Source: Candidatus Gastranaerophilales bacterium (GTDB lineage: Bacteria > Cyanobacteriota > Vampirovibrionia > Gastranaerophilales > Gastranaerophilaceae). From it: 52,124 bases of DNA. Each line of letters opens with the position of its first letter. The stretch's first letter is position 1. Below are positions 8,174 to 12,520 of this stretch, piece by piece. Under the pieces are notes generated by a model. The model ran no database searches. It saw nothing but the letters and a program-made list of their open reading frames with translations, and was not told the origin of the DNA. Both the position numbers and the translations under genes were made by a program. The stretch covers positions 1-52,124 of the forward strand of contig CALUPO010000013.1 of the NCBI GenBank assembly GCA_944322675.1. The letters run 5' to 3'.

Positions 8174-8575
8174 GTGATTATAAAATATTTTTTAGTAATT
8201 TTTCTATTTTTAATATGTTTATTTTTAAACATTCATCATAAAGCATATTCAAATAGCCCGGGTGTTCAAAATAGTGCTGTTTCTCCTTATGTTAATTATA
8301 ATGACTGTATAAAAAATTATAAAATAGATGAAGAAAGTTTATTTTATCTTACACTTTCTTCAATATCGAATGCAAAATATAAAATTCTAGAAATTCAAAC
8401 AAGAAGCGGTTATATTTTATTTAGTGCGTATGGTCGTGAATTTCTAGCTCAGGTTGTTAAAGTTAACGATAATTTAAGTGAGTTAAAAATCACACCGCAA
8501 AATAATAGTTATAAATTTGATTACAATTTAATTTATAAAGTTTTTGAAGATGTAGCTTTTAATTTATCAAATTAA
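8174..8575 (+). CDS. Small exported protein, unknown function
   Basis: About 133 residues. A TTG at 8165 is in frame but would be one base from the AAGG motif; GTG at 8174 has AAGG about 10 bases upstream and is preferred. The N-terminus is a long hydrophobic stretch (KYFLVIFLFLICLFL) that acts as a signal peptide or anchor. The rest contains mixed polar segments, with a C-terminal part (QTRSGYILFSAYGREFLAQV and LKITPQNNSYKF) that looks like a small beta-rich domain. It starts 32 bases after polA and its last bases overlap the convergent acsC stop. No family is recognised. Confidence 0.7.
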   Translation: MIIKYFLVIFLFLICLFLNIHHKAYSNSPGVQNSAVSPYVNYNDCIKNYKIDEESLFYLTLSSISNAKYKILEIQTRSGYILFSAYGREFLAQVVKVNDNLSELKITPQNNSYKFDYNLIYKVFEDVAFNLSN

Positions 8576-9891
8576 GAAACATTTGTAAGTTCATTATTAA
8601 GTTTTTCAATAAATTGTGGCAATTCAAAAGCTTCAACGGTTCCTATTATTATTTTCCAATTTGGCAAAGCATCTTCAAGTTCTTCTTTCATAGAGGCTAA
8701 TAATCCAGGAATAATAATTAATTTATTTTTTAAATTATTTAAAATTTTGTTTTCATTTACCATTTTCTTTACCATATCAGCTGTAAACTTTTCAGCTGAC
8801 CAAGCTGTTAAAACACTCATTCCATCAGATGGTGTAATTAAAAGAAAAGTAGGTGTTTCAATAGCTTCAAGCTCATTAGCAACAGCAAAATATGTTAATG
8901 CAAAATTTGTAGTCATAACAACAATTGCCTTATCAAGATTTTCTTTTGGATTATTTATTTCATATATTTTACTTTCAACTTGAAGTGGTTTTTGTGGATT
9001 TGTAAATATATTTTGTCTTAATGTAAGTAAAGCAGAAAACATTGATTTATCAAAAATATCAAAAACGATAATATTTGAATATCGGCAAATAAGTAATGAA
9101 GCAATTGCAGTTGCTTTATTTATATCCTGTTCTTTTATTTGTGTTAAAACAGGATATGCAAAAGGTTGATATTTTTCTTCAATAGCTTGATAACGAATAT
9201 TTGTTAAATCATTAATTACATCTTTAATATTTTTATTTTCGATATTATCATATTTTAAAATTAAAGACTTAAAACCATCATTTTGAAGTTTTTCACTTTT
9301 TTGACTCAATAAATTAAGATCTTGAGATGAAACTATTATTGTACTATCTTTATTAATATTAGAAAAATTATCTAATTCTAAAATAATATCATTAAAATTA
9401 TCTTCTAAATTTATATCATTTTTTGATTTTAATATTATATTTAGGTTTTTTGATTTTATTTTATTTAAAGCAAAATTAATATTACCATTATCAATTAAAT
9501 AAATTCCATCAATTTTAAAAGTTTCGCCAACTCTTTCAATTTGATAATTTGCAATTTCATTAAGCTTAAATTCAAAATCAGGATCATTTGAAAATAATGT
9601 TATATAAAATCGACATGGATTAACAAAAGTTTTTTCATGTCGAAACATAACAGTTTCACCACCTGTTTTTATATTATTGCCTAAATTTATTTCATGTTGT
9701 TGAGTTATATTTGCCTGAATAAATAATTGCTTTAATTCATTTGAAACAAAAGGACACTTTTCAATACAGGTATTTTTTGAAGCAAGTTTTATAGCAAAAG
9801 CCATACAAGTTGGAAAACCACATTTTTTACAATTAGTATTTTCTATTTTTTTGCCTCCGGGCAGATATTTAAATATTTCAATTGCATTCAA
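8572..9891 (-). CDS. acsC: Corrinoid iron-sulfur protein large subunit (AcsC/CdhE-like)
   Basis: A 439-residue protein, close to the usual length of about 445. The N-terminal NCKKCGFPTCMAFAIKLAS...CIEKCP segment carries the four Cys (CxxCxxxxC...C) of the low-potential 4Fe-4S domain. The middle is the TIM-barrel domain, and the C-terminal part (LLITPSDGMSVLTAWSAEKF, LIIIPGLLASMKEELEDALP, WKIIIGTVEAFELP) matches the cobamide-binding domain. In the Wood-Ljungdahl pathway this subunit with AcsD carries a methyl group from methyltetrahydrofolate to acetyl-CoA synthase. Here no acsA, acsB or acsE lies in the window. Its start overlaps the acsD stop by 14 bases, so the pair is translationally coupled. 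Its role may be methyl transfer to another acceptor, such as a methionine synthase of the folate-independent type; that is an inference. Confidence 0.92.
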   Translation of the reverse strand: MNAIEIFKYLPGGKKIENTNCKKCGFPTCMAFAIKLASKNTCIEKCPFVSNELKQLFIQANITQQHEINLGNNIKTGGETVMFRHEKTFVNPCRFYITLFSNDPDFEFKLNEIANYQIERVGETFKIDGIYLIDNGNINFALNKIKSKNLNIILKSKNDINLEDNFNDIILELDNFSNINKDSTIIVSSQDLNLLSQKSEKLQNDGFKSLILKYDNIENKNIKDVINDLTNIRYQAIEEKYQPFAYPVLTQIKEQDINKATAIASLLICRYSNIIVFDIFDKSMFSALLTLRQNIFTNPQKPLQVESKIYEINNPKENLDKAIVVMTTNFALTYFAVANELEAIETPTFLLITPSDGMSVLTAWSAEKFTADMVKKMVNENKILNNLKNKLIIIPGLLASMKEELEDALPNWKIIIGTVEAFELPQFIEKLNNELTNVS

Positions 9892-10702
9892 TTTTTAATA
9901 CCTCATTTAAAGTTTTAACTGTATTTTGATTACATACTACAATAATATTTGCATTTGCCGCAATTATTGATGAAGCAGCTGCTATTTCCCACAAATCAAT
10001 ACGTTTATCTAGTTGTCCCCAATTTTCATTATAATTGTTGGTTTTTAATTCTTTAGCCTTAAAAACTTCTTCACCTATAAATGAAATTATAGGAAAGTCA
10101 AGCATTTTATCACCTTTTAATGCTTCTATTCTAATTTTTTCCATCATTGAATATCCGTAATCAAGCCCATACCCAAGCCCGCCTGTATCTGTATCAATAA
10201 TTATTTTATCATTTTTTAATCCCATATCAAGAGATAAAATGTTAAGTTCTTTTGCTAAGTTTATATCAATAGGAGTTCTTAAAACAATTTTGTGTTCACT
10301 TTTTATAATTGAAGGAATAATTTCTCGATAATTAGATTCCTGTGCAAATGCTATAATTGATGGTTTTTTGATGTTGGAGGAAAAATAATTTAATAATTTA
10401 ACATCTAATTTATCATTATTCATTCCACACAATATTAATGGTTTATCTATACTATTTAAAAAATCAATTGATTTTTGAATATATTTAAATTGTTTTTCAA
10501 AATCTTTTACACTTAAATTAAATTTTAATGCCAAAAAAGAAGATTTAATATCGATAGCATTTATTATACGAAATTTAAAATTTTCAAATATTTCATCAAA
10601 ATTTTCTTCACTAATATTTGTTTCTTTTTTTGTAAAAAGTGGTATTTCATAAGCAATTTTAAAATCTTTAGCTTTTTTTGTAAATGCAATATCAAATAAC
10701 AT
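9878..10702 (-). CDS. acsD: Corrinoid iron-sulfur protein small subunit (AcsD/CdhD-like)
   Basis: A 274-residue protein, shorter at the N-terminus than the roughly 320 of acetogen AcsD. Diagnostic segments include LRTPIDINLAKELNILSLDM, DTDTGGLGYGLDYGYSMMEK, RIEALKGDKML and the WEIAAASSIIAANANIIVVC region. It forms a TIM-barrel that heterodimerises with AcsC and caps the corrinoid. It lies 3 bases after the stop of a sensor histidine kinase gene and overlaps acsC by 14 bases, so the order is kinase-acsD-acsC in a single operon. The stop codon is TGA. A stand-alone CFeSP pair outside a CODH/ACS cluster is unusual; whether CODH/ACS genes exist elsewhere in the genome cannot be seen. Confidence 0.9.
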   Translation of the reverse strand: MLFDIAFTKKAKDFKIAYEIPLFTKKETNISEENFDEIFENFKFRIINAIDIKSSFLALKFNLSVKDFEKQFKYIQKSIDFLNSIDKPLILCGMNNDKLDVKLLNYFSSNIKKPSIIAFAQESNYREIIPSIIKSEHKIVLRTPIDINLAKELNILSLDMGLKNDKIIIDTDTGGLGYGLDYGYSMMEKIRIEALKGDKMLDFPIISFIGEEVFKAKELKTNNYNENWGQLDKRIDLWEIAAASSIIAANANIIVVCNQNTVKTLNEVLKIECN

Positions 10703-10705
10703 ATT

Positions 10706-12520
10706 TTAAATAACCTCTTCTTTATTTAAATTAGTTGTGTCAAATGTTGGCAGTAAAATAGAGAAAGTAGAACCTTCATTAACTTTACTTTTTACTTTAA
10801 CAAATCCATTATTATGTTTTTCAACAGTTATTTTAACAAGATGTAAACCAAGACCTGTTCCCTTTATTGAATGAGTGGCATTTTCGACACGATAAAACCT
10901 ATCAAAAATTTTGTCTAAATGTTTTTCTTCAATACCAATACCATTATCAATAACAGATATTTCAACATAATTAGGATCTTTTGCAATTTCTGCTCGTATT
11001 TTAATTTTATCATTGTTATTTGAATATTTTATAGCATTTGAAATAAGATTTTTAATGGCACGTTCAATACTTTGTTCATTAATAAAGACTTTTGGTAAAT
11101 TGTCTTCTTTTAGAATAGAAAAATGAAGTCCTTTTTCCTCAGCAAGTATTTGCATAGATTCAATACTATTTTCAATAACCTGACTTATATCATAAAAATC
11201 TTTATGCAATTTAATATTTGTTGATTCAAGTCTTGAAAAATCTAAAATTTCATTTACCATCCTGTGTAAATGGTCAGTTTCTTTATTTAAAGTTGCCAGA
11301 AATTCATGCTTTGTTTCCTCATCAAATTCAGATGAATGGTTATATAACGTATCAGCATAAGTTCTTAAAACAGTAACAGGAGTGCGAAGTTCATGAGATA
11401 CATTAGATATAAAAGAACTTTTCATCTTATCAATTTCAACTTCTTTTGTAACATCAATTAGAACAATAATATATCCTAAATAATCCTGATTTTTGGAAAA
11501 CATAGGAGATATAACAGCTTTTAAAACCCGTTTATCAATTTCTATATTAAATTCAAGTGGTTTTTTCTCCATTATATCAAGGGGAGTATCTTTAAATTGT
11601 TCAATTTTTTCTTTGAAACAAAGGTTTCCGTTGCTATCACAATATTTTTGGATTTTAGTTGAATTGATTAAATCCGGTTCAACGTCCAGCAATTTTTGAG
11701 CTGCATTATTAATAAGCACAACATTATCATAGTTATCACAAACAACAACGCCATTTGCAATACTCATTAAAACAGCTTCAAATTTGTTTCTTTCAAGAGT
11801 TAATTGTTCAATATTTTGTTCTTCATAAGTATTTAAGCGGCTTGACATATCATTAAAAGCTTCTACAAGTTGTTTTAATTCTCCGGATATGCCATTTATA
11901 TCTATTTTATAGCCAAAGTGACCGCCTGAAATATTTTTTACACCCATTTGTAACGTGTTTAATTCTCGTGTAATTAAGATAGTATTTATTAATACAGTTA
12001 TTGTAAAAACAATCCATGCTACAGAAAATACAATTAACATAGAGTTTCTTGTGGTTTTTGAAATATTTTGTATTGTATGACCGCTCAAACCTATAATAGC
12101 TGCACCTATAACCTTAGGATTGTTTTCTTCTTGGTTAAAATTTTCAATAATCATGGGAGAGCTCACTGTTATACGAGTTTCATTAGCTCTTTTAGGAAAA
12201 TCATTTTTACTTGAATAAATAATTTCACCATCATTAGTTTTAAATTCAATATAAGCTATATCTTTGTTTGATTGAAGCAGAGATTTAATATTTTTGCTTA
12301 TTTTTTCATAAATATCATACTCACCATAATCCTTAGCAATTTCAGAACTTTCAACAGCAAGAGTTTTTGACATCATTTTACCAAATTCGGTATAACTTGC
12401 ATCAAGTTTTTCCTGAATATTAATAATTGAAAAAAAAGCAATAGACATAATTAACAGGGTGCTAGTGATTAGACCTGTAAAAATTAATTTGTTTTGTGTT
12501 GTAAAACTCATCCTTTTCAT
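10706..12520 (-). CDS. Membrane sensor histidine kinase (TM-sensor-TM-HAMP-PAS-HisKA-HATPase)
   Basis: 604 residues. TM1 is at about 10-32, followed by an extracytoplasmic sensor of about 130 residues, TM2 at about 163-186, HAMP to about 235 and a PAS domain at about 245-360. HisKA has NVSHELRTP with the phospho-acceptor His376, and HATPase_c has NLISNAIKYS, VIDNGIGI and GTGLGLHLV. All catalytic boxes are intact. The plan is that of WalK/PhoR/NblS-type kinases. No response regulator is adjacent. It is the first gene of an operon with acsD and acsC. A TGATATAAT extended -10 box ends 7 bases before its ATG, so the mRNA is probably leaderless. The signal sensed is unknown; the genetic linkage suggests a connection with corrinoid or one-carbon metabolism, which is an inference. 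Confidence 0.93.
   Translation of the reverse strand: MKRMSFTTQNKLIFTGLITSTLLIMSIAFFSIINIQEKLDASYTEFGKMMSKTLAVESSEIAKDYGEYDIYEKISKNIKSLLQSNKDIAYIEFKTNDGEIIYSSKNDFPKRANETRITVSSPMIIENFNQEENNPKVIGAAIIGLSGHTIQNISKTTRNSMLIVFSVAWIVFTITVLINTILITRELNTLQMGVKNISGGHFGYKIDINGISGELKQLVEAFNDMSSRLNTYEEQNIEQLTLERNKFEAVLMSIANGVVVCDNYDNVVLINNAAQKLLDVEPDLINSTKIQKYCDSNGNLCFKEKIEQFKDTPLDIMEKKPLEFNIEIDKRVLKAVISPMFSKNQDYLGYIIVLIDVTKEVEIDKMKSSFISNVSHELRTPVTVLRTYADTLYNHSSEFDEETKHEFLATLNKETDHLHRMVNEILDFSRLESTNIKLHKDFYDISQVIENSIESMQILAEEKGLHFSILKEDNLPKVFINEQSIERAIKNLISNAIKYSNNNDKIKIRAEIAKDPNYVEISVIDNGIGIEEKHLDKIFDRFYRVENATHSIKGTGLGLHLVKITVEKHNNGFVKVKSKVNEGSTFSILLPTFDTTNLNKEEVI

Follow-up and report, generated by a model that had tools for sequence, protein, structure and literature searches.

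The window analysed here, a stretch of 52,124 nucleotides on contig CALUPO010000013.1 of a Candidatus Gastranaerophilales genome (GCA_944322675.1; 2.10 Mb, 41 contigs, 99.45% complete), carries acsD and acsC, which encode the two subunits of a corrinoid iron-sulfur protein (CFeSP). We propose that this protein, AcsCD, very probably carries methyl groups on its corrinoid within a B12-dependent methionine synthase made of three parts, the other two of which would be the methyltransferase AcsE and a zinc enzyme resembling the core methionine synthase MesB (hereafter the MesB-like protein). The host genome and a survey of 192 genomes of the order Gastranaerophilales show directly which parts are encoded, which key residues they keep, how they co-occur and which alternatives are missing. 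The catalytic steps and the direction of flow, which we infer from sequence, would run as follows: FolD and MetF produce 5-methyltetrahydrofolate (methyl-THF), AcsE transfers its methyl group onto the cob(I)amide carried by AcsCD, and methionine forms when the MesB-like enzyme, having activated homocysteine, passes it the methyl group from methyl-AcsCD. Reductive reactivation is probably the role of the 4Fe-4S cluster in AcsC. In terms of MetH, AcsE would then stand for the folate module, AcsCD for the corrinoid module and the MesB-like protein for the homocysteine module.

The assignment of AcsC is straightforward. The protein scores above the curated cut-off of NCBIfam NF003195 (CdhE/AcsC; 345 versus 306 bits), matches the large subunits of CFeSPs of solved structure (E 4e-68), and retains, besides domains PF03599 and PF04060, the 4Fe-4S motif C-x2-C-x4-C-x16-C and the C-terminal corrinoid domain; its nearest named record, 79% identical, comes from a Candidatus Gastranaerophilales metagenome-assembled genome. 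AcsD carries PF03599, and its residues 80-266 match solved small subunits at E 4e-35; the protein is short at its N-terminus and reaches a best NCBIfam score of 179.5 bits, under the curated cut-off of 280. We therefore see two subunits of the CdhD/CdhE family with the expected cluster motif and corrinoid domain, the smaller of them shortened and below its cut-off. Because AcsE likewise falls under its curated NCBIfam cut-off (193 versus 259 bits), the clade is divergent. In some genomes of family f3 acsD is separated from acsC, and the order-wide CFeSP counts given below rest on AcsC, not AcsD.

An earlier note, made from the letters of the window, had remarked on the lack of carbon monoxide dehydrogenase/acetyl-CoA synthase (CODH/ACS) and methyltransferase genes, and had suggested that the CFeSP might be kept for another reaction. 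Acetyl-CoA synthase AcsB (PF03598) is indeed found neither in the window nor in the rest of the genome, where a complete cluster might have lain, and it is found in none of the 192 genomes, in a search that was positive in two control methanogens and did not include the CODH catalytic subunit. As AcsC is present in 128 of these genomes without any AcsB, it must be selected for something else. The remark about the methyltransferase holds for the window alone, for acsE lies elsewhere in the genome. Of the genes that the note proposed to look for, acsE and a core methionine synthase are present, and acsB and metH are absent. The MetH homocysteine domain (PF02574, S-methyl_trans) and the MetE catalytic domain (PF01717) are missing from window and genome alike; across the order PF02574 occurs in 7 of 192 genomes and PF01717 in 3.

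Two genes of the host genome encode Pterin_bind proteins, one a dihydropteroate synthase and the other, on contig C10, AcsE. AcsE (also MeTr) is the methyl-THF:corrinoid protein methyltransferase. The C10 protein stands alone, finds solved MeTr structures as its best matches (E 8e-44), lies nearer to MeTr than to dihydropteroate synthase or MetH, and retains the folate and catalytic Asn motifs (SFDSTN, NST, DPLV and GLSN). MetF is also encoded in the genome and scores above the TIGR00676 cut-off. Because AcsE and MetF are both present, folate, not acetyl-CoA, is the most likely source of the methyl group.

The homocysteine enzyme was reached by way of the acsE neighbourhoods of other genera. 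In genomes of four other families (f2, f3, f4 and f7) acsE closes an operon of a mesB-like gene, an ATPase gene, folD and acsE, and in genome G108 metF lies directly upstream of acsE. The first protein of this operon, of about 360 amino acids, has no Pfam match and does match an NCBIfam "methionine synthase" model. A profile built from it finds a homolog in the host genome (G000:C3:74081-75139; E 2e-130), in a mesB-ATPase-folD operon; metK lies on the opposite strand at a distance of about 2.5 kb. The host protein has 363 amino acids, compared with about 340 for MesB, and consists of a single domain with no folate domain; it matches NCBIfam NF002119 "methionine synthase" over residues 120-355 (E 1e-10; 2e-11 for the best homolog). 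An earlier reading of the PF01717 negative as absence of any MetE-type synthase was set aside, as PF01717 fails to detect the MesB-like protein.

The zinc ligands provide further insight. H232, C234, D253 and C330 are invariant in the alignment, including the H-x-C pair, and are present in every homolog examined from AcsC-bearing genomes. Their spacing of +2, +21 and +98 can be set beside the +2, +21 and +97 of published core-MetE/MesB proteins, that is, His215, Cys217, Asp236 and Cys312 as modelled for Dehalococcoides core-MetE (PMC7005905) and positions 214, 216, 235 and 311 of DET0516 (PMC7857596); the ligands of MesA (216, 218, 240 and 301) are spaced otherwise (PMC7857596). As in published MesB, an Asp ligand occupies the place of the Glu in MetE.

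Some homologs depart from this pattern. Two divergent ones, L168:7127-8182 (G185, g15) and L169:7112-8185 (G096, g16), no longer have the zinc ligands (QFDG, SSTS), as read in one CFeSP-less genome of each genus, and may have a new function; Chloroflexales homologs are likewise reported to lack zinc ligands (PMC7857596). In genus g2, the proteins at L166:6793-7665 and L167:6885-7757 (G062 and G083) are cut to 290 amino acids by an internal deletion with the ligands kept, and both genomes have lost AcsC, AcsE and MetF.

A different acceptor is the alternative that survives best. In this model AcsE and AcsCD would hand methyl groups to arsenic, mercury or some thiol that is not homocysteine. The MesB-like protein would belong to the MtaA/UroD superfamily as a methylcobamide:thiol methyltransferase, which is suggested by weak matches to MtbA (E 3e-4) and to MtaA/CmuA (E 2e-3). 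We consider this unlikely, as the best family match of the MesB-like protein is to methionine synthase, the Asp ligand stands at MesB spacing, and metK lies close to mesB; the HgcA model reaches only 38 bits against a cut-off of 275. Moreover, genomes with the MesB-like set otherwise lack a methionine synthase, and MetH substitutes in some genera: of the seven MetH genomes, none has AcsE and six lack AcsC.

The distribution of the parts across the order favours a methionine synthase built around AcsCD. AcsC is found in 128 genomes, AcsE in 118, MetF in 120 and the MesB-like protein in 129, the last count covering close matches and excluding divergent and truncated ones. AcsC and the MesB-like protein occur together in 126 genomes, AcsC alone in 2, the MesB-like protein alone in 3 and neither in 61, which supports the earlier note's suggestion of a core methionine synthase and means that 126 of 129 MesB-like genomes also have AcsC. 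AcsE and MetF are similarly paired (both in 115, AcsE alone in 3, MetF alone in 5, neither in 69), and all four proteins coincide in 112 genomes.

Members of genera g2, g7 and g13 that lack AcsC also lack AcsE, and their MetF is absent or, in G080, truncated; this points to repeated joint loss of AcsC, AcsE and MetF in these genera. The MesB-like gene in the same members is variously absent, internally deleted (the two g2 genomes described above) or intact in its ligands (G080 and G162), which suggests that it was lost later than the CFeSP or kept after the CFeSP was gone.

Several observations weigh against a methionine synthase of this kind. The Fisher P values for co-occurrence are tiny, and they ignore the relatedness of the genomes. 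In the host genome acsDC, acsE, metF and mesB are unlinked. The MesB-like protein has no Pfam match and no solved relative in the Protein Data Bank (PDB) by sequence, is far from characterised enzymes, and gave no useful match when its alignment was compared by hhalign with the order's own MetE catalytic domain (3 close rows). Finally, eight genomes of genus g6 (G057, G113, G172 and five others; L178-L182) keep AcsCD and the mesB-ATPase-folD operon in the absence of AcsE and MetF, and the MesB-like zinc ligands are intact in G057 and G113, the two that were read. Folate therefore cannot be the methyl source in these eight, for which either a different methyl donor or ongoing decay has to be considered.

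After mesB the examined operons encode the ATPase, a MinD/CooC-like protein (L150:7323-8063 and homologs), and in most of them folD comes next. The C-x-C motif of the ATPase is invariant in the eight genomes examined, and it has no curated family match in the libraries searched. Maturation ATPases of the CooC type carry C-x-C, and our guess is that the protein probably assists in loading metal or corrinoid, or in activating the system. Rfam models detected no riboswitch close to mesB, acsE or acsDC in the loci scanned, the window not being among them. More tentatively, we entertain the possibility of a fully disassembled synthase with a fifth, as yet undescribed family of core synthase and a C-x-C ATPase of its own, in which the AcsCD of genus g6 would be charged by a folate-independent donor; on present evidence we would not favour it.

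The closest known system is that of Dehalococcoides mccartyi, where MesB (core-MetE) is also a single-domain zinc synthase with no folate domain, encoded near metK, and where the CFeSP AcsCD is predicted to be the methyl donor (PMC7005905, PMC7857596); the likeness in the H-C-D-C ligands was drawn by way of the published positions. For that organism the proposed methyl source is acetyl-CoA, by way of AcsB, and neither AcsE nor MetF is present (PMC7005905, PMC7857596). The Gastranaerophilales host is complementary, lacking AcsB and having AcsE and MetF for folate input. MetH, of which versions split into two or three pieces are known as well, takes the same route from methyl-THF through corrinoid to homocysteine, but here each part is a protein of its own and belongs to another family, and the homocysteine domain is of MetE type and not of MetH type (PF02574). 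The steps from methyl-THF to methyl-CFeSP are identical to the MetF-AcsE-AcsCD methyl branch of the Wood-Ljungdahl pathway, although acetyl-CoA synthase is missing here and the acceptor is most likely homocysteine. That MesB draws its methyl group from the CFeSP has been predicted, with no test reported in these papers, for hosts where the CFeSP also serves acetyl-CoA metabolism (PMC7005905, PMC7857596). In this large gut clade methionine synthesis is the sole evident job of the CFeSP, and because acetyl-CoA synthase is absent the MesB-CFeSP prediction becomes directly testable with four proteins. An incomplete literature search found nothing on such a system in Gastranaerophilales or Melainabacteria.

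The genes at the locus run head to tail (Table 1), with a gap of 3 bases between the kinase gene and acsD and an overlap of 14 bases between acsD and acsC, as the earlier note had it. From this arrangement the note also proposed that the kinase could sense corrinoid or methyl status, and one could imagine that kinase and AcsCD form a sensing module, with the corrinoid protein or methyl status controlling the kinase or the reverse. The tight spacing, probably in one transcript, recurs in G149 (loci L005, L012 and L100, which are one contig), and the order is confined to these two genomes of the window's genus. In 31 other genomes ftsH occupies the same slot, and in 6 acsDC has no coupled upstream gene. 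As the kinase adjoins acsDC in one genus only, with ftsH elsewhere, the gene order is no evidence of a sensing link; the conservation in relatives on which the note had staked that link is lacking. We regard the sensing module as very unlikely and the kinase as probably having no functional link to acsDC, which is better explained as a two-gene unit behind varying neighbours and promoters.

Least credible, and largely refuted, is the view of AcsCD as the relic of a Wood-Ljungdahl pathway, whether whole or decayed, that still works with CODH/ACS in carbon fixation or acetyl-CoA cleavage: AcsC, AcsD and AcsE are true members of the Wood-Ljungdahl families, yet in none of the 192 genomes is AcsC accompanied by AcsB. 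The presence of AcsC, AcsD and AcsE in an annotation is accordingly not evidence of that pathway. PF01717, for its part, scores these bacteria as negative for methionine synthase, which is probably wrong.

Table 1. Genes of the acsDC locus in the window, and the gene found upstream of acsD in other genomes
Feature	Position or loci	Strand	Description
acsC, CFeSP large subunit	8572..9891	-	439 aa, TTG start; NF003195, PF03599, PF04060, PDB matches, 4Fe-4S motif
acsD, CFeSP small subunit, N-terminally shortened	9878..10702	-	274 aa; PF03599, PDB matches over residues 80-266
Membrane sensor histidine kinase	10706..12520	-	604 aa; HAMP-PAS-HisKA-HATPase, nearest relatives NblS/WalK
ftsH-like gene, end overlapped by acsD by 14-23 bases	L006, L007, L010, L011, L013-L039, L112, L118		31 genomes
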